Positions 114-39,807 of a stretch of DNA of 39,807 nucleotides are shown here, one piece after another (positions within the stretch are counted from its first letter, which is position 1; every line of letters begins with the position of its first letter). This DNA is from Oscillospiraceae bacterium. GTDB lineage: Bacteria > Bacillota > Clostridia > Oscillospirales > Oscillospiraceae. Location of the stretch: assembly GCA_902790375.1 (NCBI GenBank), contig CADARY010000023.1, positions 1 to 39,807 on the forward strand, written 5' to 3'. Position numbers and translations under genes: made by a program. Under the pieces are notes generated by a model that was given only the letters and a program-made list of their open reading frames with translations, did no database searches and was not told where the DNA came from.

Positions 114-346
114 CCTCGTCCGGGGCTTCCGTTGTCTCAGGCAAGTCCGCCTCATACACGCTGCACACCTCGTCCCCTTTGAGCTTTAATTTAGAATGCA
201 GATCATGGATCGAAAATCCGCGCGGATCGCGCCGCGCTTTCCGGCGGTGTGCGCCTTCTGTGACAGTTCGTGTGTTATTCTCAGGCTGTCCTTGAGGGAC
301 AGAACGAAGCGACATCCATCACATCAATATAAAGGAGATAATCAAA
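114..346. other. Intergenic stretch, no convincing gene
   Basis: This stretch separates the leftward gene from the small peptide gene. It is less GC-rich than the flanking genes. A 72-codon minus-strand frame at 97-315 crosses it but has no ribosome site and runs into the promoter and inverted repeat. No convincing -35/-10 pair for the peptide gene at 347 was found here, although one is expected. Confidence 0.5.
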
Positions 347-481
347 ATGAAAATGCTCAGGGAAGTTGAACTTGATAAGATCTCCGGCGGCCTCTCGTCG
401 CCCTTCACTCTCGGCCCGGCCTACGAGCCCACCACCCCCAAGGAGGAACCGCGTGAGGGCGGTGCGACCTACACCTGGTAA
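347..481 (+). CDS. Small double-glycine-leader peptide (putative RiPP, bacteriocin or signal precursor)
   Basis: This 44-residue product starts with a good ribosome site (AAAGGAG at 331-337, nine bases before the ATG). Residues 1-15 read MKMLREVELDKISGG. The ELDKISGG end matches the double-glycine leader consensus (L-x-x-[IV]-S-G-G) used for bacteriocins, RiPPs and quorum peptides cut by C39-peptidase ABC exporters. Cleavage after Gly15 would release a 29-residue peptide with no Cys, rich in Pro, Thr and Glu and ending in TYTW. The lack of Cys argues against a lanthipeptide or sactipeptide. A strong terminator follows directly, so it is a one-gene transcript. No modification enzyme or C39 exporter is in the window, so its partner would be elsewhere. 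That it is a real gene is likely; the precursor function is inferred from the leader motif. Confidence 0.7.
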   Translation: MKMLREVELDKISGGLSSPFTLGPAYEPTTPKEEPREGGATYTW

Positions 482-3238: not shown

Positions 3239-4723
3239 ATGCCGTTTGCCTGGAATCTCCCCTATCTGAGTGTTTTTCTCACCATGATCACGGCGATCCT
3301 TCTGTCCGTGATCCCCGGCGCGAAGCGGGCCTATTGGATCACCGTGGGCGTCAGCGCCGCCGTCGCGGTGATGTCGCTCTGTTTTCTCGCCTTCATTGTG
3401 AAGGCGGATACCGCCTATGCCTTTACCATGGGCAAGTTCCCCGCCCCCTTCGGCAACGAGATCCGCTTCGGCCCCCTGCAGGGCCTCCTGGCCTCCGTCT
3501 TTGCCGCGGTCATGTGCCTGTCCCTGCTCGGCGGGCGCGAAGAGCTTTTTGAGGACGTGGATCCCAAAAAGATGGGCCTTGCCTGCGTGATGTTCAATAT
3601 GGTGCTGGCAAGCCTGCTGGTACTGAGCTACACCAACGACGCCTTCACCGCCTACGTCTTTATCGAGATCAGCACCATTGCGGCCTGCGCCCTCGTCATG
3701 ATCAAGGACTCCGGCCCGACCCTGGTGGCGACGATCCGCTATCTCTTCATGAGTCTTCTGGGCTCGGGCCTGTTTCTCTTTTCCGTCATCCTGCTCTACG
3801 CCATCACGGGGCATCTGCTCATGCCGCAGCTTCACGACAGCGTCTCGATGCTCATGGCGGAAGGGAGCTATACGAAGGTTCTCGCGCTGCTGCTCGGGAT
3901 GATGACGGCGGGCCTCGGCGTCAAGTCCGCCATGTTCCCCTTCCACCGCTGGCTGCCGGACGCCCACGGCACGGCGACCACCACCTCCTCGGCGGTGCTG
4001 TCGGGGCTGGTCGTCAAGGGCTATGCGGTGCTGCTGATCACCATGTACTGCCGCGTGTTTACCCTGGAGACCGTGCGCGCCTTTCACATCCATGACGCGG
4101 TGTTCGCCCTCGGCTTTTGCGGGATGATCCTCGGCTCCGTGATGGCGATGCGGGAGACCCACGCCAAGCGGATGCTGGCCTACTCGTCGGTGGCGCAGCT
4201 CGGCTACGTGTTCATGGGCCTCGGCCTCGGAACGGAGGCGGGCGTTGCCGCGGCCGTCTTCCAGATCCTGGCCCACGCCTTTACAAAGCCGCTGCTCTTC
4301 GTTTCCGTGGGCCGCCTTGCCTCCACGATGCACCACGACAAGCAGCTTCGCGCCCTGCGGGGCTCCGCCTGGAATACCCCGCTCGCGGGCTTCGGCTTCG
4401 GCATCGGCGCGCTCTCCATGGTGGGCATCCCCCTCTTCGGCGGCTTCGCGGCGAAGGTGAATTTCTCCACGGCCTCCATTTTCTCCGACAGCAAGATCGC
4501 CCTGACGCTCTTTGTGCTGGCCCTCTCGTCGGTGCTGAACGCTCTCTATTATATCCCCGCGCTCATCAATCTCTGGAGCGAGAAAAACCCCGACGCCACA
4601 CGGGCAAAGAAGGATACGACCGCGACCGCCGCGATCATCCTGCTTGCCCTCGGCGTGCTGTTTCTCGGCGTCTGCTTCACGCCCGTGATGAACCTCATCG
4701 TGCGCGGGCTGGCGCTCATGTGA
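3239..4723 (+). CDS. Antiporter-like subunit 1 (MnhD/NuoM-NuoN type)
   Basis: This 494-residue polytopic protein belongs to the MrpA/MrpD/NuoLMN family that conducts protons or Na+ through two half-channels. The key charged residues are present: Glu143 in the FIEIST segment (TM5), Lys229 in GLGVKSAMFPFHRWLPDAH (TM7), Lys260 (TM8), His346 and Lys350 in LAHAFTKPLLF, and Lys406 near GGFAAKVNF (TM12). Length and about 14 helices match MnhD. It starts four bases after the mnhC stop. It is the first of four such subunits in this operon; all four keep the residues needed for ion transfer. Confidence 0.92.
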   Translation: MPFAWNLPYLSVFLTMITAILLSVIPGAKRAYWITVGVSAAVAVMSLCFLAFIVKADTAYAFTMGKFPAPFGNEIRFGPLQGLLASVFAAVMCLSLLGGREELFEDVDPKKMGLACVMFNMVLASLLVLSYTNDAFTAYVFIEISTIAACALVMIKDSGPTLVATIRYLFMSLLGSGLFLFSVILLYAITGHLLMPQLHDSVSMLMAEGSYTKVLALLLGMMTAGLGVKSAMFPFHRWLPDAHGTATTTSSAVLSGLVVKGYAVLLITMYCRVFTLETVRAFHIHDAVFALGFCGMILGSVMAMRETHAKRMLAYSSVAQLGYVFMGLGLGTEAGVAAAVFQILAHAFTKPLLFVSVGRLASTMHHDKQLRALRGSAWNTPLAGFGFGIGALSMVGIPLFGGFAAKVNFSTASIFSDSKIALTLFVLALSSVLNALYYIPALINLWSEKNPDATRAKKDTTATAAIILLALGVLFLGVCFTPVMNLIVRGLALM

Positions 4724-4739
4724 AAGGAGGAATGACGGT

Positions 4740-6194
4740 ATGCTGATGGTACTCTCGTTCCTGCTTCCCGTTGTCGGTGCGGTGCTCGTCTTCCGTGAGA
4801 CGGACAGCGCAAAGCGGCAGAAGCTCACGGTCGTATCCGTGCTCGCGGCCGCGTTCCTCGCTGTCGCCGCGGCCTTCCTCGGCCAGCTGACCGAGTTTTC
4901 GCGCGAATTTACCCTCCTGCGCCTGAGCGATACCCTGGCGCTGACCTTCGCTGCGGACGGGCTGGGGCTCTTCTTCAATGCCCTGGTCGGCTTTATCTGG
5001 TGCTTTGTCCAGTTCCACGCCTTCGGCTATATGAAGCATGAGGGGAAGGAAAGCCAGTTCTTCGGCTTCTTCCTGCTGACCTACGCGGCCCTCATCGCCC
5101 TCGCCTTTGCGGCAAACGCCGAGACGCTCTACATGTGCTTTGAGCTCATGACCCTCTGCTCCATGCCGCTGGTGCTGCATAACGGCTCGGAGCAGTCCCG
5201 GCGGGCCTCTTTCGCCTATCTCGGCTATTCGACCCTCGGCGCGTCGCTGGCGCTGCTGGGCTTCTTCCTTCTCGCCGCCCAGGGCAATGATCTCACGTTT
5301 ATTCCCGGCGGCGGACAGCTCACCGGCGATCCGAAGACCCTGTCGGCCGCGGCCTTTCTCATCATCCTCGGCTTCGGCGCGAAGGCCGGCATGGTGCCGC
5401 TGCAGATGTGGCTGACGGAGGCGCACCCCGTGGCCCCCTCGCCTGCCAGCGCGGTGCTGTCCGGCCTCATCACCAAGGGCGGCGTCCTCGCCATCATCCG
5501 CTGCACCTTCCAGCTTTTCGGGCGGGAGATGCTCCGGGGCACCTGGGTACAGACGGCGATCCTCGTTTTGGCGATCGTGACGATCTTCACCGGCTCGATG
5601 CTGGCGCAAAGGGAAAAGCTTCTTAAAAAGCGGCTGGCTTACTCCACGGTCTCAAACGTCTCCTATGTGCTGTTCGGCCTCTTTGTGTTTGACGAGCTGG
5701 GCATGGGTGTTGTCGGCGCGCTGCTGCAGATCGTGTTCCACGCCCTGGCCAAGGACGCGCTCTTCCTCTGCGCGGGCTCCGTCATCTTTGCCACCGGCAA
5801 AACGAAGGTGGACGAGCTCAAGGGGATCGGAAAGCAGATGCCCGTCACCATGTGGTGCTTTGCCATCGCGTCCCTGTCCCTGATCGGCATCCCGCCGATG
5901 GGCGGCTTTATCGCCAAGTATTATCTCGCCATGGGGGCGCTGAATACCGGCACGACCCTCGGCCTCGTCGGCGTTGTCGTGCTGATGGTCTCGGCCCTCT
6001 TGACGGCCTTCTATCTGCTGCCCATCGTGTCGGCCGCCTTCTTCCCCGGCAAAGACTTTGAGGCAGGGGAAAAGTGCGAGGTGCCCAAGACCATGCTCAT
6101 TCCGCAGATCGTGTTTACCGGCCTCACCATCCTTGGCGTACTTTCGCACGAGCTGTTGTCGGACTGTTTCATGATCAGCGGCTGGCTGATGTAA
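4740..6194 (+). CDS. Antiporter-like subunit 2 (MnhD/NuoM type)
   Basis: The 484-residue product is a second MrpD/NuoM-like subunit with about 14 helices. Visible key residues are Glu135 in YMCFELMTL, Lys215 in GFGAKAGMVPLQMWLTEAHP, Lys246 in LITKGG, His334 and Lys338 in FHALAKDALF, and Lys393 in GGFIAKYYL. AAAGGAGG precedes the ATG. It is clearly diverged from subunit 1 (different TM7 loop, LQMWLTEAHPVAPSPASA instead of FHRWLPDAHGTATTTSSA), so this is not a recent tandem copy. It probably forms another channel of the same membrane arm. Confidence 0.92.
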   Translation: MLMVLSFLLPVVGAVLVFRETDSAKRQKLTVVSVLAAAFLAVAAAFLGQLTEFSREFTLLRLSDTLALTFAADGLGLFFNALVGFIWCFVQFHAFGYMKHEGKESQFFGFFLLTYAALIALAFAANAETLYMCFELMTLCSMPLVLHNGSEQSRRASFAYLGYSTLGASLALLGFFLLAAQGNDLTFIPGGGQLTGDPKTLSAAAFLIILGFGAKAGMVPLQMWLTEAHPVAPSPASAVLSGLITKGGVLAIIRCTFQLFGREMLRGTWVQTAILVLAIVTIFTGSMLAQREKLLKKRLAYSTVSNVSYVLFGLFVFDELGMGVVGALLQIVFHALAKDALFLCAGSVIFATGKTKVDELKGIGKQMPVTMWCFAIASLSLIGIPPMGGFIAKYYLAMGALNTGTTLGLVGVVVLMVSALLTAFYLLPIVSAAFFPGKDFEAGEKCEVPKTMLIPQIVFTGLTILGVLSHELLSDCFMISGWLM

Positions 6195-6207
6195 GGAGGG
6201 GATCGAT

Positions 6208-7680
6208 ATGAAAATTCTACCATTGCTCGCGCTGCTCGTCCCCATCCTCTCCGGCGCTGCCCTGCTGGTTGTGCGGCCCCAAAACCGGGCGCAGCGAAAC
6301 CGCTATGTGCTGCTCACGGCCTGCGTGAGCGCTGTGTTCGTGCTCGGCACCGCTCTCTGCTCCGCCCTCCGGGGCCCGGACGCCGCGTATCTGCATGTGG
6401 CCGATCTCAGCGACATGCTGGTGATCGCCTTTCGCCCGGATGGGGTGAGCCTCGTCTTCGGCTGCATCATCGGCGTCCTCTGGCCCGTCACCACGGTTTA
6501 CGCCTTCTCCTATATGGAGCATGAGGGGCGGGAGAATCTGTTCTTCGGCTTCTTCCTCATCACCTTCGGCGTCGTGGCGGGGATTGCGTACTCGGCAAAT
6601 TTCTTTACCCTCTATCTCTGCTATGAGTTCATGACCCTCGTGACCCTGCCGCTCGTCATGCACGAGATGGACGACAAGGCGAGAGCCGCGGGCAAGAAAT
6701 ATGTCCTCTACTCCATGACGGGCGCGGCGCTCGTGTTCATCTGCCTCATGTTCTTTCTCCGCTATGCTGATACGCTGGCCTTCACCTACGGCGGCATCCT
6801 CGACATGGAGAAGGTGAAGGGGCACGAAAAAGAGCTCATGACCGTCTTTGTCCTGGCCTTTTTCGGCTTCGGCGTCAAGGCCGCGATTTTCCCCTTCCAC
6901 CGCTGGCTGCCGGCGGCCTCGGTCGCCCCGACCCCGGTCACGGCCCTGCTGCACGCGGTGGCGGTGGTCAAGTCCGGCGCGTTCGCGGTGATGCGCCTGG
7001 TGTACTTCGGCTTCGGCTGCGACTTTCTGCGCGGCACCTGGGCGCAGTATATCGTGCTTGCCGCCTCGGCCTTCACGGTCATGTTCGGCTCGGCCATGGC
7101 TCTTCGCATGCCCCACCTCAAGCGGCGGCTTGCCTATTCCACCGTGTCGAATCTGAGCTATATTCTGGTGGCCTTCGCCTCCATGAGTCCTGTCGGGCTT
7201 GCAGGCGGACTGCTGCACATGGTGTTCCACGCGGTGATTAAGATTTCCCTCTTCTTCTGCGCGGGCGCGATCCTGCACCACAACAGGCTGGAGTACGTGT
7301 ATGACATGGAGGGCCTTGCCAAAAAAATGCCCGTCACCTGCGGCGTGTTTCTGATCGCCTCCCTCGCGCTGATGGGCATTCCGCCGCTCGGCGGCTTCCT
7401 CTCGAAATGGACCATCGGCGCCGCCGCCGCGGCAAACGGGCACTGGGCCGGTTATCTCGGCGCGGCGAGCCTCATTGTCTCCGCCATCCTCACGACACTG
7501 TATATGATGAGCGCGGCGGTGCGCTTCTATTTCCCGCTGAAGTCTGCCCCAGCGCAGCCCGAGCACATCCATGAGGCCGATAAGCTCATGACCGGGCCGC
7601 TGCTGTTTCTCACGGCGCTGCTGCTGGCGCTGTCGCTCTGCTCAGCCCCGCTGAATGCCTGGATAGGAGGCTTGGTGTAA
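6208..7680 (+). CDS. Antiporter-like subunit 3 (MnhD/NuoM type)
   Basis: This 490-residue third subunit has the same fold, with Glu140 in LCYEFMTLVTLPLV, Lys224 in FGVKAAIFPFHRWLPAAS, Lys255 in AVVKSGAF, His341 and Lys345 in FHAVIKISLFF, and Lys400 in GGFLSKW. Its closest look-alike in the operon is subunit 2: both share the segment YMxHEG near residues 98-106, FFGFF soon after and the YSTVSN motif, suggesting an older duplication. AAGGAGG precedes the ATG. Its stop overlaps the start of subunit 4 by one base (TAATG). Confidence 0.92.
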   Translation: MKILPLLALLVPILSGAALLVVRPQNRAQRNRYVLLTACVSAVFVLGTALCSALRGPDAAYLHVADLSDMLVIAFRPDGVSLVFGCIIGVLWPVTTVYAFSYMEHEGRENLFFGFFLITFGVVAGIAYSANFFTLYLCYEFMTLVTLPLVMHEMDDKARAAGKKYVLYSMTGAALVFICLMFFLRYADTLAFTYGGILDMEKVKGHEKELMTVFVLAFFGFGVKAAIFPFHRWLPAASVAPTPVTALLHAVAVVKSGAFAVMRLVYFGFGCDFLRGTWAQYIVLAASAFTVMFGSAMALRMPHLKRRLAYSTVSNLSYILVAFASMSPVGLAGGLLHMVFHAVIKISLFFCAGAILHHNRLEYVYDMEGLAKKMPVTCGVFLIASLALMGIPPLGGFLSKWTIGAAAAANGHWAGYLGAASLIVSAILTTLYMMSAAVRFYFPLKSAPAQPEHIHEADKLMTGPLLFLTALLLALSLCSAPLNAWIGGLV

Positions 7681-9665
7681 TGCTGGTATTTATGGTTTTC
7701 CTGCCCATCCTCGCGGCGCTTGTGTGCTATCCCATATGCCGCAATTCGGAGCGGGCCTGGTTCACTCCGGCGATCGCGGTGTCCGGCGCGGTGTTCGCAA
7801 TGGCCCTGTCGCTGCTGTGGGAGCCGCAGCTTTCCGACGGCATCTATGGCTTTGCAGGTCCCGGCATCTACTTCAAGGCCGGCGGGCTGCGTACGGTGAT
7901 GGCGATCCTCGCGGCGTTCATGTGGGTCATGACGGCGCTGGCCTCCCCGGAGTATTTTTCCGGCGCGCGGGCCAACGGCCGCTACTTCCTCTTCTATCTC
8001 TGGACCCTCGGCGCGCTGGAGGGCGTGTTCCTCTCCGCCGATCTCATGACGCTCTTTGTGTTCTTTGAGATCATGAGCTTCACCTCCTACGTCTGGGTCG
8101 TGCAGAACGAGACCCCGGAGGCCATCCGCGCGAGCGAGACCTATCTCTTTATTGCGGTCATCGGCGGCCTTACGATGCTGATGGGCTTATTCCTGCTGGA
8201 TAACGCCATCCACAAGCTTGCCCTTGAGCAGCACATGGCCGCTTATGCTGGGGCGCGCGCCACACTGAGCTTTGAAAACCTCGTACAATACGCCCCGGAG
8301 CTGAGCCCGCGTCTGCGCTACACGGTGGGCGTGTGCGCCCTGATCGGCTTCGGCGCGAAGGCGGGCATGTTCCCGCTGCACATCTGGCTGCCGAAGGCCC
8401 ATCCCGTGGCCCCCGCGCCCGCCAGCGCCCTGCTCTCCGGCATCCTCACGAAGAGCGGCGTTTTCGGCGTGATTGGCATTTCCTGCTGGCTCTTTGACGG
8501 GGTGCCCGGCTGGGGCAATCTCCTGCTGATCCCGGCGGCGATCACGATGCTGCTCGGCGCGGTGCTCGCGGTTTTCTCAGTGGACTTAAAGCGCACCCTC
8601 GCCTGCTCGTCCATGAGTCAGATCGGCTTTATCCTCACGGGCGTCTCCCTGTGCGTCCTGCTGGAGGAGCACGGCGCCATCGCCGCCTGCGGGACGGTGC
8701 TGCACATCCTCAACCATTCGCTCATCAAGCTCACCCTCTTCGTCGCGGCGGGCGTCGTGTACTTCAACGTCCACTCCCTTGACTTAAACGATGTGCGCGG
8801 CTTCGGCAGGGATAAGCCGCTGCTGAAGCTGAGCTTCCTCTCCGGCGCCTGCTCCATTGCGGGCATCCCGGGCTTCGGCGGCTACATCAGCAAGACGCTG
8901 CTGCACGAGGGGATCGTGGAATACTGCGAGCATCTGGCGGAGCACGGTCACAGCGCCGCGCCCTACCGCGTTCTCGAATGGGTGTTCCTGCTCTCCGGCG
9001 GCCTGACGCTTGCCTACATGGCGCGGCTTTTCTACATCCTCTTTGTCGCCGAAAGGCCGGAGCATCAGCACCGGAAGGAAGGGCGCTATATGACGCCTCT
9101 GACCGCCATGGTGCTGGTGATCGGCGGGATACTCATGCCGCTGCTCGGCCTCACGGCTCACCTCACCATGGACAGGATCGCGGCCTATGCCCTGCCCTTC
9201 TTCCGCCGCCCGCCCATGGCCCACGCGGTCGCGTATTTCTCCCTCACGAATCTCAAGGGCGCGCTCATCTCCATCACCATCGGCGCGCTGGTCTTCGTCT
9301 TTGTCGGGATGAAGCGCCTGACCGCAAGGGAGGACGGGCATGAGGTGTACCGCAATGTCTGGCCCCGGGGCCTCGATCTCGAAGACGCGGTGTACCGCCC
9401 CGCGCTGCGCGCTCTGAGCCTGCTCGGCGCGGCGGCTGCCCGCGCGGTGGAAACCCTTGGGGCGCTGCTGGTGCTCGGGCCGGTGGATCTGCTGTTTCTC
9501 GGCGCGAAGGACAGGGTCATCCCGCCGGAGGACGATCAGTTCTCTCTCTACACGAAGCAGAGCCAGAGGAGCCGCGTCTCACGCAGCTTCTCCTCGGACC
9601 TGCTGTACGCCGCCTGCGGGGTGCTGGCTCTGCTGGGCCTTGCGGCGTGGAACATGCTGCGATAA
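7680..9665 (+). CDS. Antiporter-like subunit 4 (long, NuoL/MrpA-N type)
   Basis: At 661 residues this is the longest of the four antiporter-like subunits. The channel residues are present: Glu130 in FVFFEIMSF, Lys227 in GFGAKAGMFPLHIWLPKAHP, Lys258 in ILTKSG, His346 and Lys350 in LNHSLIKLTLF, and Lys405 in GGYISKTLL. After the 14-helix core there are about 150 extra residues with a helix near 520-535, a soluble stretch and a final C-terminal helix (about 640-660). That tail may act like the NuoL lateral arm, but its sequence does not prove this. It has no MbhD/MbhE domain, as those are separate upstream. It is the last gene before a large palindromic terminator. Confidence 0.9.
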   Translation: MLVFMVFLPILAALVCYPICRNSERAWFTPAIAVSGAVFAMALSLLWEPQLSDGIYGFAGPGIYFKAGGLRTVMAILAAFMWVMTALASPEYFSGARANGRYFLFYLWTLGALEGVFLSADLMTLFVFFEIMSFTSYVWVVQNETPEAIRASETYLFIAVIGGLTMLMGLFLLDNAIHKLALEQHMAAYAGARATLSFENLVQYAPELSPRLRYTVGVCALIGFGAKAGMFPLHIWLPKAHPVAPAPASALLSGILTKSGVFGVIGISCWLFDGVPGWGNLLLIPAAITMLLGAVLAVFSVDLKRTLACSSMSQIGFILTGVSLCVLLEEHGAIAACGTVLHILNHSLIKLTLFVAAGVVYFNVHSLDLNDVRGFGRDKPLLKLSFLSGACSIAGIPGFGGYISKTLLHEGIVEYCEHLAEHGHSAAPYRVLEWVFLLSGGLTLAYMARLFYILFVAERPEHQHRKEGRYMTPLTAMVLVIGGILMPLLGLTAHLTMDRIAAYALPFFRRPPMAHAVAYFSLTNLKGALISITIGALVFVFVGMKRLTAREDGHEVYRNVWPRGLDLEDAVYRPALRALSLLGAAAARAVETLGALLVLGPVDLLFLGAKDRVIPPEDDQFSLYTKQSQRSRVSRSFSSDLLYAACGVLALLGLAAWNMLR

Positions 9666-9673
9666 TAGAAAAA

Positions 9674-9768
9674 GGCCGCAGGAGTCGATGCCCTCTGTCG
9701 ACCCGCTGTTTTACGCAAAGCTGCGTTTTACAGCGGGTCGATCCGGGGATCGACCCCTGCGGTCTTTT
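9674..9768. terminator. Large nested palindrome, bidirectional terminator of the Mrp operon
   Basis: The outer stem joins 9674-9689 with 9749-9764 (16 positions, one mismatch and one G-U). An inner perfect 12-bp stem joins 9698-9709 (TCGACCCGCTGT) with 9730-9741 and continues, after a 3x3 internal loop, as ACGCA/TGCGT around an AAGC loop. TCTTTT follows on the plus strand and CCTTTTTC on the minus strand, so it can end both the Mrp operon and the converging gene at 9795. Part of its sequence recurs in the hairpin at 10372-10412. Confidence 0.85.
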
Positions 9769-9794
9769 ATTGATGCCGGGTCGCTCTGATTCGC

Positions 9795-10340
9795 TCAGCC
9801 TTCCGCCTTCGGTCCGTCCTCAGCGGGCTTGTCCGCCTCCGCGTCCTCGCCGAGGTCAAACTCCAGGATCTCCCCGCATTTGGGGCACTGGATGGAGCCG
9901 CGCTCCAGGGTCTGCTCGTCAAAGCTGATCTCCTCGCCGCAGACGGGACAGGTGGCGTCATAGACCACGCCGTCATACTTCAGCTCGTCCTCGCCGTCCT
10001 CTGCGTCGTCTGCGTCCTCTGCGTCGTCGGACGCCAGTCTGACCGGCTCTGCCTCTTCCGCCTCGCAGGGGCGGGAGCAGCCGCCGCATACGGGGCTGTC
10101 CGCCTCGTCCTCGCTGTCAAAGCCGCCGCAGAGCTCTTCCAGATAGCTCAGCTCGTCGGCCACGCCGTCGAGCGCCTGGGCCTGTCTGCGGTCGGTCTCG
10201 CGCAGATCTTCGAGCTCGTGGGCGATATCGCCCAGCAAATCGTTTAGTGCCGCCCAGAGCCTGCCCTCCCTGGACTGGGGCTCCATGCCCAGGCCTTCGG
10301 CCAGCCCTTTGAGATACGCCGCTTTTTCCGCAATTGTCAT
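9795..10340 (-). CDS. CD1247-like protein with C-terminal zinc ribbon
   Basis: The 181-residue acidic protein begins MTIAEKAAYLKGLAEGL, which matches the N-terminal domain of the Clostridia family named after C. difficile CD1247, of unknown function. A helical, probably coiled-coil segment (about 28-70) is followed by a Cys-containing Asp/Glu-rich linker and a zinc ribbon with CPVC at 131-134 and CPKC at 152-155. GGAGGTG eight bases before the ATG at 10340 fixes the start; an upstream start at 10355 would place that ribosome site inside the gene. It lies downstream of efp beyond a hairpin terminator. The zinc ribbon is seen; any role in RNA, DNA or protein binding is unknown. Confidence 0.8.
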   Translation of the reverse strand: MTIAEKAAYLKGLAEGLGMEPQSREGRLWAALNDLLGDIAHELEDLRETDRRQAQALDGVADELSYLEELCGGFDSEDEADSPVCGGCSRPCEAEEAEPVRLASDDAEDADDAEDGEDELKYDGVVYDATCPVCGEEISFDEQTLERGSIQCPKCGEILEFDLGEDAEADKPAEDGPKAEG

Positions 10341-10371
10341 AAGGAACACCTCCATGTTTGTTCTCGAAAGA

Positions 10372-10412
10372 AAGACCGCAGGGGTCGATCCGGGGATCGC
10401 CCCTGCGGTCTT
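10372..10412 (-). terminator. Palindromic terminator after efp
   Basis: A perfect 13-bp stem (10372-10384 with 10400-10412, AAGACCGCAGGGG and complement) contains an inner CGATCC/GGATCG stem. Reading leftward it is followed by TCTTTCTTTC. It shares most of its sequence with the right half of the palindrome at 9674-9768, so it is also a copy of a short dispersed repeat. Confidence 0.8.
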
Positions 10413-10424
10413 GTCCTGCTTTCC

Positions 10425-10934
10425 TTACGCTCTGGACAGATACTCGCCCGTGCGGGTGTCGATCTTGATGCGCTCGCCGCGTTCGATGAAGAGGGGCACC
10501 TTGATCTCGGCGCCGGTCTCAACCGTGGCGGGCTTGGTGGCGTTGGTAGCGGTGTTGCCGGCAAAGCCGGGATCGGTCTCGGTGACCTCAAGCTCCACGA
10601 AGAAGGGCGGCTCGACGTTGAAGACCTTGCCCTTGTAGGAGTAGATGGTGCACTCCATGTTTTCCTTGACGAACTTGAAGTTGTCGTTCAGGACAGAGCC
10701 GTCGACAGGCTCCTGCTCATAGGTCTCGGGATTCATGAAGTAGTAGAGATTGCCGTCGTTGTACAGGTACTCCATGGTGACGCGGTCAACGGTGGCGTTC
10801 TCAAATTTCGCGGTGGGGTTGAAGGAAGTTTCGGTGACGGCGCCGGTGATGACGTTCTTCATCTTGGTGCGGACAAAGGCCGCGCCCTTGCCGGGCTTGA
10901 CGTGCCCGTTTCTGAAATCGCCTGCAGTAATCAT
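10425..10934 (-). CDS. efp: Elongation factor P with a 16-residue internal deletion
   Basis: EF-P helps ribosomes form bonds at polyproline stretches. The protein is 169 residues; the family norm is about 185. It reads [10 protein letters not shown] directly followed by [14 protein letters not shown], so the segment that normally lies between (usually like ITLEIDGNVYQIIEFQ) is missing in frame. The lysine at the tip of the KPGKG loop is kept (Lys16, equivalent to about Lys32 in other species). Domains II and III look complete, including the C-terminal signature ending [24 protein letters not shown] site eight bases upstream fixes the start. Domain I would lack its first beta-strands, so either it works in altered form or a second copy exists. 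Assembly error is possible but would have to be exactly 48 bases. Confidence 0.9.
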
Positions 10935-10975
10935 ATAATGGGACCTCCCGATAATTAATATCTGTTATCTATGTT

Positions 10976-11004
10976 ATTTTACAGGATATATGCGCATAAT
11001 GCAA
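10976..11004 (-). promoter_or_regulatory. Promoter of efp
   Basis: On the minus strand TTGCAT (10999-11004) and TAAAAT (10976-10981) are 17 bp apart, 42 bp upstream of the efp ATG. It allows efp to be expressed independently of the peptidase gene upstream. Confidence 0.7.
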
Positions 11005-11011
11005 GAGTTTT

Positions 11012-12082
11012 TTACAGAATAATCAGCTCGCTCTTCGGCGCTCTGGTGATGACCTCGGCATGATCGGGGCGGATGATCATCACGTCCTCGATGCGCACGC
11101 CGAAGCGGCCGGGTAGATAGATGCCCGGCTCCGCCGAGGACAGGGCGCCCGCCGGCAGCGGCTCCTTCCCGAGGAGGCCTGCAAAGGGCGGCTCGTGGAT
11201 GTCAAGGCCCAGGCAGTGGCCGAAGCCGTGGCCGAAGTATTCGCCGTAGCCCGCGTCCGCGATCACCCTGCGCGCAGCGGCGTCGATGTCCCTGCCGAGG
11301 ACTCCGGCCTTTGCCGCCGCGATGCCCGCGAGCTGGGCTCTCAGCACGATATCGTAGACGTTTTTCATCTCCTCCGTCGCAGAACCGACGGCGACGGTGC
11401 GGGTCATGTCGGAGCAGTAGCCGTCCTTCAGGCAGCCGAAGTCCATGGTCACGAAGTCGCCGGCCCGGATCACCTCATCCCCGGGCACGCCGTGGGGCAT
11501 GCTGGTTTTCGCGCCGGTGACCACGATGGGGTCGAAGGAGTTGCCCTCTCCGCCGTGCCGGAGCATGCGGTAGACGAGCTCCGCCGCAACCTCGCGCTCG
11601 GTCATGCCCGGCCGGATGATGTGCAGCACCTCCTCCAGCGCCTGTTCGCTGATGCGCTGGGCATGGATCATGGAGGCGATCTCCTCCTCCGTCTTCACCG
11701 CGCGCAGGGTGTCGAAGAGATTGCCCGCGGCCTCCAGCTTCACGCCGAGCTTCTTTTCCCAGTCGAGAAAGCCCGCGTGGCTCAGGCGGCGGTCCTCGGC
11801 GGCGATTTTCTCTGCGCCGGTCTCGGCAACGGCCTGCTTCAAAAGCGCGGGCAGGGGGTGCGCCTTATCGAACATGCGGACCTCGACCCCCTCGGCCTGC
11901 CGTTCGGCCGCCTCGATATAGCGGGAGTCGGTGAGCAGGAAGGCCTTCTCCTTCCCCACCAGCACGGCCCCGTCGGTAAAGGGAAAGCCGGCCGCATAGC
12001 GCTGGTTCTTCTCATCGGTGACAAGCACGGCGTCCAGCCCGCGCTTTGTAAGCTCTTCTCGGATCCTTGCGATTTGGTTCAT
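11012..12082 (-). CDS. Xaa-Pro aminopeptidase / dipeptidase, M24 family
   Basis: This 356-residue cytoplasmic metallopeptidase removes residues next to proline. It has an N-terminal creatinase-type domain (1-125) and a C-terminal pita-bread catalytic domain. The five metal ligands are visible: Asp214 (MDFG), Asp225 (SDMTR), His289 (GHGFGH), Glu318 (SAEPGIY) and Glu332 (RIEDVM). The start is the ATG after AAAGGACG. Neighbourhood with efp is a conserved Firmicutes pairing and both concern proline peptides. It is 22 bp downstream of the kinase gene, so read-through from the two-component operon is likely. PepP versus PepQ specificity cannot be told from this alone. Confidence 0.92.
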   Translation of the reverse strand: MNQIARIREELTKRGLDAVLVTDEKNQRYAAGFPFTDGAVLVGKEKAFLLTDSRYIEAAERQAEGVEVRMFDKAHPLPALLKQAVAETGAEKIAAEDRRLSHAGFLDWEKKLGVKLEAAGNLFDTLRAVKTEEEIASMIHAQRISEQALEEVLHIIRPGMTEREVAAELVYRMLRHGGEGNSFDPIVVTGAKTSMPHGVPGDEVIRAGDFVTMDFGCLKDGYCSDMTRTVAVGSATEEMKNVYDIVLRAQLAGIAAAKAGVLGRDIDAAARRVIADAGYGEYFGHGFGHCLGLDIHEPPFAGLLGKEPLPAGALSSAEPGIYLPGRFGVRIEDVMIIRPDHAEVITRAPKSELIIL

Positions 12083-12104
12083 GTTTTTGTCGTCCTTTAC
12101 TATT

Positions 12105-13526
12105 TTATCCTTTATACGCCGGGAAGCTCACGATAAAGCGGGAGCCCCGCGGCTCGTTTGCGCCGACGGCGATGCTGCCGCCGTGGGCCTTCACCGCGTC
12201 ATGCACGATGCTCAGGCCGAGACCGCTGCCGCCGGCCTCGCGGGAGCGGGCCTTGTCGATGCGGTAAAAGCGGCCGAAGATATTGTAGCGCTCATCCTCC
12301 GGGATGCCGACGCCGGTATCCTCTACCGTCAGCTGCACGGTGTCGCCCTCCTTATGGAGCTTCGCCGTGACGCTGCCCTCCGGGAAATTGTATTTCACCG
12401 CATTCTCCAGGAGATTGAACACGATGTGGTGCATATTGTCCTTGGTGGCGAGCACCAGGCAGCCGTCGTCAAGCTCGGCGTTCAGCGTCACCTGTTTCTC
12501 TGCCGCCACCGGGCGCAGGAGGTTGATGGCGTCGAGCGTGGCCTTCTTCACATCCACCGGCTCCGGCACGATCTGGATGTCGTCGTCCATGCGCGACAGG
12601 CTCAGCAGATCCTCCGTCATATGCTGCAGGCGCTCGGCCTCGTTGCCGATGTCGGAGACAAATTCGCGCATGGTCTCCACATCCATGTTTTCCGTCTGCA
12701 CGATGCTGTCGGCCAGCAGCCGGATCGAGGCAAGGGGCGTTTTCAGCTCGTGGGAGGCGTCGGACACGAAGCGGCGGCGCTGCCGCTCGGTATCCTCCAG
12801 GCGGGCGGTGAGCTCATTGAACTCCCGGCTGAGCTCCGCCAGCTCGTCCTTGCCGCTGACCGCGATGCGGTATTTATAGTCCCCGCCGGACACCACGCGA
12901 ATGGCGTTGGAGAGCTGCCGGAGCTTGCCGAGGACCGTGGTCCCGTACACGCCCGCCATGACCAGGGCCGCAATGGCGATCACGATGGACAGCGCGCGGA
13001 TCTGCACCTGCAGCTCGTGCAGGATCTTGCCGCGCTCGGCGTCGTTCTCCCGCAGGAAGACCGCGCCGGTTATGCTTTTATGGTTGCCGATGGGGATGGC
13101 GTAGCTGGAATGAAAGCTCTCGTCCCGGAAAACGGAGCGAAACACTGTCTTCCCGCTGAGGGCTGTCAGCAGATCCGGCTCCACCCCGTCCCGGCTGCCG
13201 CCGCCGTCGGAGTCGTAAACGGCGCTGCCCGCCTTGTCGGCGATGGTGACGCGCTCATAGCCCTGCATGTCCAGCAGGCGCAGCACCTCCGCCACGTTCT
13301 CCTCGTCCGGGCGCTCAAGCCCCGTGAGGGCCGAGGCCAGCATGGAGGCCTGACTCTCCATGGCCTTCTCCTTCTCCTGGTACACCGCGTCGCGGGTGGA
13401 GACATAGGGGAAGATATTCAGCATTACCAGCAGCACCACAAGCAGCAGCCCGATGAAGACGATGAACTGAAAGCTGATGCTGCCGGTGTTGATCAGTTTT
13501 TTTGCGGAAGCATTCTCATTCGGCAA
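12105..13526 (-). CDS. Membrane sensor histidine kinase (PhoR/WalK type)
   Basis: The 473-residue kinase has a membrane helix at about 18-40, an extracellular sensor of about 130 residues, a second helix (about 178-200), a HAMP segment, the phosphorylated His259 in SDASHELKTPL, and an ATPase domain with the N box (NLLENAVKYN), DTGVGIP, FGRFYRID and GGSGLGLSIV. There is no suitable ATG near the start; TTG at 13526, overlapping the regulator gene by 11 bp, keeps the first helix complete and suggests translational coupling. The signal is unknown. Position next to a cell-wall carboxypeptidase makes an envelope signal plausible but this is only inference. Confidence 0.93.
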   Translation of the reverse strand: MPNENASAKKLINTGSISFQFIVFIGLLLVVLLVMLNIFPYVSTRDAVYQEKEKAMESQASMLASALTGLERPDEENVAEVLRLLDMQGYERVTIADKAGSAVYDSDGGGSRDGVEPDLLTALSGKTVFRSVFRDESFHSSYAIPIGNHKSITGAVFLRENDAERGKILHELQVQIRALSIVIAIAALVMAGVYGTTVLGKLRQLSNAIRVVSGGDYKYRIAVSGKDELAELSREFNELTARLEDTERQRRRFVSDASHELKTPLASIRLLADSIVQTENMDVETMREFVSDIGNEAERLQHMTEDLLSLSRMDDDIQIVPEPVDVKKATLDAINLLRPVAAEKQVTLNAELDDGCLVLATKDNMHHIVFNLLENAVKYNFPEGSVTAKLHKEGDTVQLTVEDTGVGIPEDERYNIFGRFYRIDKARSREAGGSGLGLSIVHDAVKAHGGSIAVGANEPRGSRFIVSFPAYKG

Positions 13527-14214
13527 GGTAATATCCCACTCCCCACTTGGTTATGATGTGTTCGGGCTGGGCCGGATTGAGCTCCAGCTTCTCCCGCAGG
13601 CGGCGGATATGCACGTCCACGGTGCGCGTATCGCCCAGATAGTCGTAGCCCCACACCAGATCCAGCAGCTTTTCCCGCGAAAACACCTTGCCGGGGTTTT
13701 TCATCAGGAAGAGCATCAGGTCGAACTCCTTCATCGTCAGCTCTACCTCCTGGCCGTTTTTGTACGCGCCGCGGCGCTTCTCGTCCAGGGTGATGTGGCC
13801 GCAGCGAAGCACATCCGGCGGCTCAGGCTCCGCCGGGGCGGGGGCCGCAGTCGTCAGGGAGGAGCGGCGGATCAGCGCCCGCACCCGGGCCTTGAGCTCC
13901 AGGATGTTGAAGGGCTTGGTGATATAGTCGTCCGCGCCGGATTCAAAGCCCATGAGCTTGTCGGCATCCTCACTGCGGGCGGTGAGCATAATGATGGGCA
14001 CGGTGGAGAAGCTGCGGATCTCCTGGCAGGCCTCAAGCCCGTCCTTCTTCGGCATCATCAGGTCGAGGATGATGAGGGCGTAGTCCCCCTCCTGCGCCAT
14101 GTTCACGGCGGTCTCCCCGTCGTATGCGGTATCCACGGTGTAGCCCTCGTTCTCCAGATTGAACTTGATGCCCTTTACCAGCAGCTTTTCATCGTCGACA
14201 ACCAGTATCTTCAT
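13516..14214 (-). CDS. OmpR/PhoB-family response regulator
   Basis: The 232-residue regulator has a receiver domain with acidic pocket Asp8/Asp9, phosphoacceptor Asp51 in IILDLMMPKKDG, Thr78 and Lys100 (ITKPF), followed after an Ala/Pro linker by a winged-helix DNA-binding domain (about 132-232, with FDLMLFLMKNPGKVFSRE and DVHIRRLREKLE). The start at 14214 is chosen because GGAAGGAG precedes it and the receiver begins MKILVVDDE. It is the first gene of the kinase operon and is divergent from the carboxypeptidase at 14402, a possible target. Confidence 0.95.
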   Translation of the reverse strand: MKILVVDDEKLLVKGIKFNLENEGYTVDTAYDGETAVNMAQEGDYALIILDLMMPKKDGLEACQEIRSFSTVPIIMLTARSEDADKLMGFESGADDYITKPFNILELKARVRALIRRSSLTTAAPAPAEPEPPDVLRCGHITLDEKRRGAYKNGQEVELTMKEFDLMLFLMKNPGKVFSREKLLDLVWGYDYLGDTRTVDVHIRRLREKLELNPAQPEHIITKWGVGYYLAE

Positions 14215-14272
14215 GCCCGCTCTCCTTCCTGCCGCCGGGGAGCTGCGCTCGACGGAATGCGCGGTGTTTCCC

Positions 14273-14301
14273 TTGCATTTTATCCGTCCCGGCGGTATAA
14301 T
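14273..14301 (+). promoter_or_regulatory. Promoter of the D-Ala-D-Ala carboxypeptidase gene
   Basis: TTGCAT (14273-14278) and TATAAT (14296-14301) are separated by 17 bp, about 100 bp upstream of the ATG at 14402. It lies in the divergent region shared with the response regulator gene. Confidence 0.75.
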
Positions 14302-14401
14302 AAAAAATACGATTTTCAGCATACAGGGCGCGGCTTTCCCGCGATGCGGCGCGCCCTCACCCATATACTATACCATATTCCTGAGAAAACGGGAGAGCAA
14401 A

Positions 14402-15871
14402 ATGAAAAAATTCAAAATTTTTCCCCTCCTCCTGCTTCTGAGCCTGCTGCCCGGCTTATCCGCGCCCGCGGCGCACGCGCTGGAGGCGCCGAAGCTCAAC
14501 GGTCAGGCTGCGGTCCTCATTGATCTGGACGCAGGCCGTGTGCTTTACGGCTACAATATGGATGATGAGCGCGCCCCCGCAAGCCTCACCAAGGTCATGA
14601 CCGTGCTGCTGGCCCTCGAGGCTGTGGACGGCGGGCGCGTGAGCCTGGATGAAATGATCGTCGCCCAGGACGACTGCATGGAGGGCATGGAGGAGGACTC
14701 CAGCACCTCCGGCATCGTGCCGGGGACCCAGATCTCCATGCGGGATCTGCTGTACTGTGCGCTGCTGCAGTCGGCAAACGAGGCCTGCAACATCATCGGC
14801 CGCTACATCTCGGGCAGCATTTCCGGCTTTGTGGATCAGATGAACCGCAAGGCTGAGCAGCTCGGCTGCAAACACACCCACTTTGTCAACACCAACGGCC
14901 TTCCGGCGGAGAACCATTACAGCTCGGCGTATGACCAGTATCTGATCTTCAACGCCGCCATGAAGCACCCGCTGTTCATGGAGATCTCCAACGCCGCCTC
15001 CTACCAGGCCCAGTGCCCCGCCGTCAATAACGGCGAGCCGATCGGAAACTCCAACGCCCTCATCAACATCACCTCCATCTATTCCAACGGCGGGCGCTAT
15101 CTCTACGAGGGGGCCAGCGGCGGCAAGACCGGCTACACCCGCGCCGCGGGCTACTGCCTTATCTCCACGGCCCAGCGAAACGGCGTGCGCCTGCTCGCGG
15201 TCGCGATGGGCTGTGAAGGCGCGCTCAACGCCCAGACGGACGAATACTACAACTTTGTCGACAGCCGCACCCTCTATGACTGGGGCTTCAACAATTTCTC
15301 CTACCGCACGCTCTTAAACAGCAACGAGGTGATCGACCGCCAGGACGTGGAGCTTGCCGAGGGCGACGCCGTCGCCATGCTCCGCCCGGCGGACGAGCTC
15401 AAGGCCCTCATGCCCAACGAGGTCACGGACGACAACATCCGCCGCGAGGTAGTGCTCTATAACGAGACGCTGCGCGCCCCCATCGACGCCGGCACCGTGC
15501 TGGGCGAGGTGCGCATCTACGTGGGCAGCACCCTATACGGAACCAGCAAGCTGGTCAACAGCTCCGCCATCGAGCTCTCGCGCAACGCCTATCTGGCCCG
15601 CCGCGTGGGCGAGATCCTCAGCAAGGGCTGGGTCATCACGCTGCTGAGCATCCTGGGCGTGTTCGCGCTGATCTACCTGATCCTCATCACCCGCTACCGC
15701 CGCCTGCGCAAGCGCCACCTGCGGGAGCGCCGCCGGGCCGAGAAGCGCCGTCGGCAGGAGGATCTGCAGCGCCGGAAGGAGGGCGTTCCCTTCCGCACCG
15801 CAGACCCCGTGGACCGCTTCGATTTCACCGCCGACATGAGCGAGTTTTTCGACGACGAGGACGGACAATGA
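14402..15871 (+). CDS. D-alanyl-D-alanine carboxypeptidase (PBP5/DacF type)
   Basis: The 489-residue exported enzyme trims the terminal D-Ala from peptidoglycan stem peptides. A signal peptide (about 1-26, ending AAHA) precedes the S11 domain with catalytic SxxK Ser61-Lys64 (SLTK), SxN at 124-126 (SAN) and KTG at 242-244. A PBP5-like beta domain follows (about 320-430). A membrane helix at about 455-477 is followed by a strongly basic, then acidic cytoplasmic tail (about 478-489 acidic), a bitopic arrangement instead of the usual amphipathic anchor. The ATG at 14402 follows GGGAGAG. It could be dacF or dacB like; the sporulation-specific form cannot be told. Confidence 0.93.
   Translation: MKKFKIFPLLLLLSLLPGLSAPAAHALEAPKLNGQAAVLIDLDAGRVLYGYNMDDERAPASLTKVMTVLLALEAVDGGRVSLDEMIVAQDDCMEGMEEDSSTSGIVPGTQISMRDLLYCALLQSANEACNIIGRYISGSISGFVDQMNRKAEQLGCKHTHFVNTNGLPAENHYSSAYDQYLIFNAAMKHPLFMEISNAASYQAQCPAVNNGEPIGNSNALINITSIYSNGGRYLYEGASGGKTGYTRAAGYCLISTAQRNGVRLLAVAMGCEGALNAQTDEYYNFVDSRTLYDWGFNNFSYRTLLNSNEVIDRQDVELAEGDAVAMLRPADELKALMPNEVTDDNIRREVVLYNETLRAPIDAGTVLGEVRIYVGSTLYGTSKLVNSSAIELSRNAYLARRVGEILSKGWVITLLSILGVFALIYLILITRYRRLRKRHLRERRRAEKRRRQEDLQRRKEGVPFRTADPVDRFDFTADMSEFFDDEDGQ

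Positions 15872-39713: not shown

Positions 39714-39807
<94 letters not shown>

Follow-up and report, generated by a model that had tools for sequence, protein, structure and literature searches.

A double-glycine peptide with a conserved C-terminal tail and a shared upstream element, predicted to be exported in trans, in an Oscillospiraceae genome

Introduction

Exporters with a C39 peptidase domain are usually treated as secreting bacteriocins or pheromones and as having their genes next to those of one or a few substrates. The leaders handled by export systems of the NHLP/NHLM type are of the nitrile-hydratase or Nif11 type, and in the prochlorosins many dispersed precursors are served in trans by one machinery. 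In the pneumococcal rtg system, the PCAT RtgAB is reported to secrete its co-regulated GG peptides preferentially (PMC7018657). LahT150, a C39 domain, is reported to cleave leaders of another family as well, which indicates that C39 peptidases can be broad (PMC6363468).

Here we analyze a double-glycine peptide gene from an Oscillospiraceae genome for which rtg is the nearest published system that we found, with a C39-type exporter and a set of apparently co-regulated GG peptides in both cases. Whereas the rtg set lies in one locus under an Rgg/SHP-like pair, the genes described here are scattered, the exporter is of the NHLM type, the cargos include LysM, CW_7 and PepSY proteins, and the upstream element carries direct repeats with 11-bp spacing. 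Both exporter pairs of the genome resemble the NHLP/NHLM systems in matching TIGR03796 and TIGR03797 over nearly the full length, but the leader of our peptide is a short double-glycine leader and one of the pairs (on contig C20) scores below the model cut-off. The dispersion of GG precursors around one machinery would be analogous to the prochlorosins, from which this locus differs in having no linked modifying enzyme and a Cys-free core. Similarity to the leader model of lactococcin G-beta and enterocin 1071B (NF038034) is confined to the leader (E 0.16, below cut-off), with the core unmatched.

Results and discussion

The peptide gene and its signals

The window, that is, the whole stretch of 39,807 nucleotides analyzed here, is the entire contig C23 of a 3.10-Mb assembly (G000) of 95 contigs that is 88.6% complete. 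On its plus strand, an ATG-initiated ORF at 347–481 encodes 44 residues, a 15-residue leader (MKMLREVELDKISGG, 347–391) ending in ELDKISGG and a 29-residue core (LSSPFTLGPAYEPTTPKEEPREGGATYTW) that is free of Cys and closes with TYTW, in agreement with the description in the original prediction. A ribosome-binding site, AAGGAG, is found in the sequence at 332–337 (plus strand), 9 nt 5′ of the ATG, and the same strand carries an intrinsic terminator at 491–532, a hairpin of 14 bp with a loop of 9 nt and a run of T residues. The segment 482–540 has a minimum free energy of −28.8 kcal/mol (z −7.5; equaled by none of 200 shuffles), so that the good ribosome site and strong terminator claimed earlier both hold. 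The terminator is absent from a consensus terminator scan because the loop limit of that scan is 8.

The leader agrees with what is expected of C39 substrates, about 15–30 residues ending in GG, and matches our leader profile A5 with an E-value of 2.1e-4 that is not independent, the leader being itself one row of the profile. Comparison of identities within the family divides the predicted mature peptide into a variable, Pro-rich middle (392–454, plus strand) and a conserved C-terminal tail, EGGATYTW, with Trp as the final residue (455–478, plus strand). The predicted 29-mer is Pro-rich and net acidic (charge about −2), and no amphipathic stretch was found in it by eye. The window peptide reaches the cut-off of no Pfam or NCBIfam model and of no bacteriocin family model. 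The ORF is not a chance one, since a single-peptide search of 5.8 billion proteins returned five matches, three of them intact homologs of 43–44 residues.

A peptide family with a conserved tail

At E ≤ 1, a profile of 12 relatives (A4) matched 120 protein clusters. The broader profile A6, with 31 rows, matched 251 clusters at E ≤ 0.1, 120 of them listed. The tail pattern G[AV][TEQ][GYC][GTS]W ends 155 of 170 retrieved sequences, and mean pairwise identity is 83% for the last 8 residues, 50% for the last 14 residues of the leader and 25% for the middle (computed on random pairs drawn from the 155 sequences with the tail, or from 147 for leader and middle); the profiles include leader and tail, so that the frequency of these parts, and also their contrast with the middle, arise partly by construction. 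The commonest final eight residues in the 170 sequences are DGGATGGW (79), SGGATGGW (24), DGGATYTW (11) and DGGATGSW (11), and the family uses few tail types (GGW, YTW, GSW and EGTW). Pro makes up 17% of the middles, Cys occurs in 15 of 147, and one database variant (P0004) has no tail.

Among 102 genomes of the genus, ten full-length members (E < 1e-17) are found in eight genomes, and two further loci with a DGGATGGW tail, in G094 and G106, bring the tail-bearing genomes to nine. Across 394 genomes of the order, no full-length A4 match was found outside G000, and 14 genomes, G000 included, have an A4 match at E ≤ 0.05. G000 itself holds two tail types, YTW in the window gene and GGW in a paralog on contig C20. 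The original prediction had called the gene an orphan; this is true of its own contig but not beyond it, since the gene belongs to a large homologous family, shares its upstream element with other genes and has a paralog. Intact homologs are present in relatives, among them an ortholog in G097.

In a scan of 400 genomes of the family, which included 10 genomes of the genus only, a strict ATGGW tail pattern blind to YTW and EGTW tails was found in G000 alone, at C20 and at C53:8416. The latter is a frame (L250, about 1345–1524) that ends in ESRDGGATGGW and has neither a double-glycine leader nor a match to the upstream element model R1; it may be a tail copy that has decayed or is unrelated. 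Carriage by viruses was considered and rejected: viral contigs contain 14 strict-tail stretches, and none of the 14 frames has a double-glycine leader (last 90 residues, by eye). DGGATGGW was not found in the open-licence full-text literature searched, none of the titles and abstract openings listed concerns this tail or LysM cargo with double-glycine leaders, and no name for the family turned up in the libraries consulted.

A shared upstream element

Upstream of both the window gene and the C20 paralog lies a common block of about 55 bp. An alignment of 14 such sites, the window site among them (A3), shows conserved direct repeats, TGTG (248–251) and TGTGA (259–263), 11 bp apart, which span 248–263 of the plus strand. 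They are followed on the same strand by a putative extended −10 (TG-T-TATTCT, 273–281), whose TG and TAT columns are invariant in A3, and by the conserved block CTCAGGCTGTCCTTGAGGGACAG (280–302), which overlaps the presumed transcription start. Direct repeats with this spacing that end about 10 bp before the −10 resemble PhoB/OmpR-type promoters. We rejected a conserved RNA structure in the 5′ block: a 6-bp stem can be drawn here, but 61.9% of cells pair over the 14 sites and there is no compensatory change.

R1, a sequence-only model of 61 nt built from the 14 sites, matches the window at 247–304 (E 7.7e-20) and has no other match in it at E ≤ 1. At E ≤ 0.01 it has matches in 43 of the 102 genus genomes. 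Many matches span the upstream half only, and the promoter-like part is therefore wider than the conserved block. When as many as 2 mismatches are allowed, the pattern CTCAGGCYGTMCTTGAGRGA gives 23 sites in 18 of the 102 genomes, against 4 sites for a reversed control; double-glycine ORFs follow 13 of the 23, namely all 11 sites at 0–1 mismatch and 2 of 12 at 2 mismatches. A broad exact pattern finds 29 sites in a collection of 84,980 species, 20 of them before double-glycine ORFs (in L154 the GG is masked), all in metagenome-assembled genomes (MAGs) titled as Clostridia-type bacteria and mostly from ruminant gut. The titles of MAGs with related loci include Ruminococcaceae, Oscillospiraceae, Lachnospiraceae and Clostridia bacterium.

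G000 has 11 R1 sites at E ≤ 0.02, of which 8 precede double-glycine ORFs (6 of 9 when the two sites used in training are set aside). The eight genes are the window gene and the C20 paralog, a PepSY gene on C12, LysM genes on C35 and C4, further genes on C5 and C35, and a weak SH3 gene on C58. The remaining three lie elsewhere. Of two sites on C40, one is followed by a PepSY-like protein whose start resembles a signal peptide, and the other has no clear gene. The site on C63 (L096, near 9080) is followed by a 67-residue membrane-like protein that has no Pfam match, and L097 (G027:C8) holds a membrane-like protein of 66 residues, both after nearly full R1 matches; the two are candidates for an immunity or partner role in trans.

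Other double-glycine genes

The leader profile A5, which has 16 rows, 8 of them from G000, finds 19 places in G000 at E ≤ 10. Within these 19 loci (56,654 bases), R1 finds 10 sites, one in each of 10 loci and just 5′ of the leader ORF, so that about half of the double-glycine genes of this genome have the element and the rest are without it; among the 11 places from which A5 was not built, the element is present at 2. Of 15 of the 19 leader proteins analyzed with Pfam, five have LysM, two CW_7 and one PepSY above cut-off, and SH3_3 is below cut-off in two. Leaders fused to LysM, CW_7, SH3 or PepSY were seen at these places in G000 and also in L105, L106, L172 and L229–L235. Small cell-wall-binding proteins with double-glycine leaders are apparently exported through a C39 exporter and not through Sec.

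Exporters

The window contig has no C39 match, and 23 window ORFs of at least 90 residues, a subset of its ORFs, include no RiPP enzyme or exporter family by Pfam, in line with the earlier statement that neither is nearby. Elsewhere in the genome there are two C39 (PF03412) matches over cut-off, on contigs C8 and C20, both part of NHLM ABC1/ABC2 pairs; the C8 pair is above the NHLM model cut-off. A C39 domain is present in 66 of the 102 genus genomes. In a comparison of 29 C39 loci, 21 share 60% identity or more with the ABC1 of C8 (95.5% in G097).

We inspected 20 C39 regions from relatives, all with a C8-type ABC1 (63–96% identity). A double-glycine ORF is present in 9 of ten regions that were chosen for a nearby leader match, and in 5 of the other ten (G097, G106, G073, G103 and G069, the last with an R1 match near the exporter known before the region was picked). 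None of the double-glycine ORFs beside C8-type exporters in the 20 regions has the GGATxxW tail, and the cargo is of other kinds. R1 has 17 hits in 22 loci from exporter regions, and 13 of these hits (12 of 16 without a training site) sit 33–83 nt 5′ of a double-glycine ORF.

Over the 102 genus genomes, C39 occurs in 51 of 54 leader-positive genomes and in 15 of 48 others (p 6e-12), and in 39 of 43 genomes with R1 and 27 of 59 without (p 1.4e-6), p-values that are overstated because incomplete genomes lose both partners and related genomes are not independent. The leader is found without C39 in G028, G077 and G082, and R1 without C39 in G009, G076, G077 and G115; G077, which is 83% complete, has double-glycine peptides with the element and no C39 match.

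The C20 exporter pair belongs to a RiPP cluster (L013, G000:C20:24000-41221, 4644–15637) that includes a radical-SAM C-methyltransferase (TIGR03975). The cluster also holds a LanM-like protein that narrowly misses its cut-off, a fragment resembling HlyD and a precursor that is Nif11-like by eye. Its radical-SAM, precursor and ABC1 proteins are 96.5–100% identical in G109 (the LanM-like protein 78.5%), and the cluster has therefore probably been transferred recently. Immediately 3′ of it is the C20 paralog. A link of the peptide to the C20 exporter by this adjacency was dropped, since the paralog in G097 stands without the cluster.

Neighborhood and divergence

The peptide gene starts 346 bp from the contig end, and its upstream neighbor lies beyond the contig of this assembly. 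Immediately 3′ are Mrp/Mnh antiporter subunits by Pfam, beginning with an MnhE-like subunit (PF01899, 711–1169, plus strand), which we place outside the system. The G097 ortholog has the same antiporter genes downstream, with 92.6–97.1% identity in the six proteins compared; upstream it has a DNA methyltransferase gene, on which PADLOC gives methyltransferase matches that are uninformative. Other members have different neighbors, such as 5′-nucleotidase (G104 and G106), U32 peptidase (G094 and G106) and MatE (G027). No neighbor is common to all examined member loci, whether immunity, receptor or regulator gene.

One immunity candidate stands beside a member. In G104, SdpI-family and CAAX-protease-like genes are found downstream of the peptide gene, behind a regulator of the winged-helix type that looks ArsR-like by eye and has uninformative Csa3-like matches in PADLOC. 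In the same region (L094, G104:C8, 4650–7030), the regulator/SdpI/CAAX-protease-like group is flanked by an inverted copy, about 100 bp long, which splits the conserved block 5′ of the peptide gene, resembling a small mobile repeat (by eye).

Between G000 and G097, the window gene shows five synonymous and two non-synonymous changes (dS 0.177, dN 0.020), and the C20 paralog a single non-synonymous one. Other family pairs have dN/dS of about 0.4–0.5, for example G106–G104 (dS 0.313, dN 0.125). With such small counts, this pattern fits constrained ends and a freer middle and proves little.

Proposed function and alternatives

We consider it somewhat more likely than not that the window gene encodes a co-regulated secreted peptide that is cleaved and exported in trans by an NHLM-type C39 exporter and whose tail is recognized outside the cell. 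A shared promoter type, with direct TGTG repeats and an extended −10, would drive the window gene together with the scattered double-glycine genes. The exporter is most likely of the widespread C8 type; its C39 peptidase would cleave after Gly15, whereupon it would release the 29-residue mature peptide. Outside the cell, the conservation of the C-terminal GGATxxW suggests it as the part most likely to be recognized, as a signal or docking determinant, and the variable Pro-rich middle may serve as a spacer that presents it. The processing in trans proposed in the original prediction gains support from the two NHLM-type exporters and from an element and leader type common to dispersed cargos. 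Neither outcome named there as refuting, a lack of homologous small genes in related strains or of a double-glycine exporter in the genome, was observed. Several observations count against our reading: C39 is present in only 66 of the 102 genomes, G077 combines element-bearing double-glycine peptides with the lack of a C39 match, about half of the leader places in G000 are without the element, 3 of the 9 R1 sites of G000 outside the training set do not precede double-glycine genes, the C8-type exporter regions inspected hold no peptide of the tail family, and the variant P0004 has no tail.

The earlier proposal of a new bacteriocin, here an unmodified class II-like one in which the middle would set target specificity, the tail would bind a common receptor and immunity would be encoded elsewhere, is in our view unlikely. 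The double-glycine leader, the C39 exporters in the genome and the hypervariable middle would all suit it, as would the SdpI-family and CAAX-protease-like genes of G104 and the small membrane proteins behind the element in G000 and G027. The G104 genes, however, follow a regulator and were seen in one genome, the examined loci share no immunity neighbor, and the peptide stays below the cut-off of every bacteriocin model. Since it is also acidic and Pro-rich, has no amphipathic stretch and ends in an invariant Trp, a signal or docking peptide would fit better than a pore former.

A signaling role, which had also been proposed, best suits the invariant C-terminus, and in its narrower form a short C-terminus (e.g., ATYTW) would be released as a pheromone by further proteolysis, the rest being a spacer. 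The much stronger conservation of the tail, the few tail types and the presence of one YTW and one GGW type in G000 are consistent with such a precursor, which we nevertheless regard as improbable: no receptor or regulator gene is common to the examined neighbors, and a signal with one tail across many species would be shared to an unusual extent. Modification in trans before export, for example by the C20 C-methyltransferase, would agree with the RiPP substrate that was suggested at the outset, with the position of the C20 paralog just 3′ of the radical-SAM/NHLM cluster and with tail residues that could be modified. It appears quite unlikely to us, as the cluster has its own Nif11-like precursor, is missing beside the G097 paralog and by its near-identity in G109 seems recently acquired, and the window core is Cys-free; neither the 23 window ORFs nor the C20 locus offers a modifying enzyme that is linked to the precursor and conserved with it.

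If secretion in trans with a recognized tail is correct, lone double-glycine genes in MAGs would be better interpreted as parts of a secretome than as stray bacteriocins. An exporter type that is widespread in the genus seems to handle cargos from across the genome, a partly co-regulated set that includes cell-wall-binding mini-proteins. The family with its variable middle and fixed GGATxxW tail gives a practical entry point, a single short tail that can be synthesized, altered and used as bait. Only tentatively do we extend this to a dedicated double-glycine secretome of the genus, in which one promoter type and one general NHLM/C39 exporter would serve mini-proteins (LysM, CW_7, SH3 and PepSY) as well as a large family of hypervariable peptides with a receptor-recognized GGATxxW shared between rumen species.

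Additional observations

Two further peptide groups were noticed. One (L158, L160, L163, L168 and L175) has the same upstream element, and in it RPLPFP..QDRR stands amid variable sequence; the other (L170 and L098) has a terminal block like FNTIIDFLNSRR. At the far end of the window, the minus strand of 39714–39807 contains a 5S rRNA gene truncated by the contig end, the sole Rfam match at gathering score.
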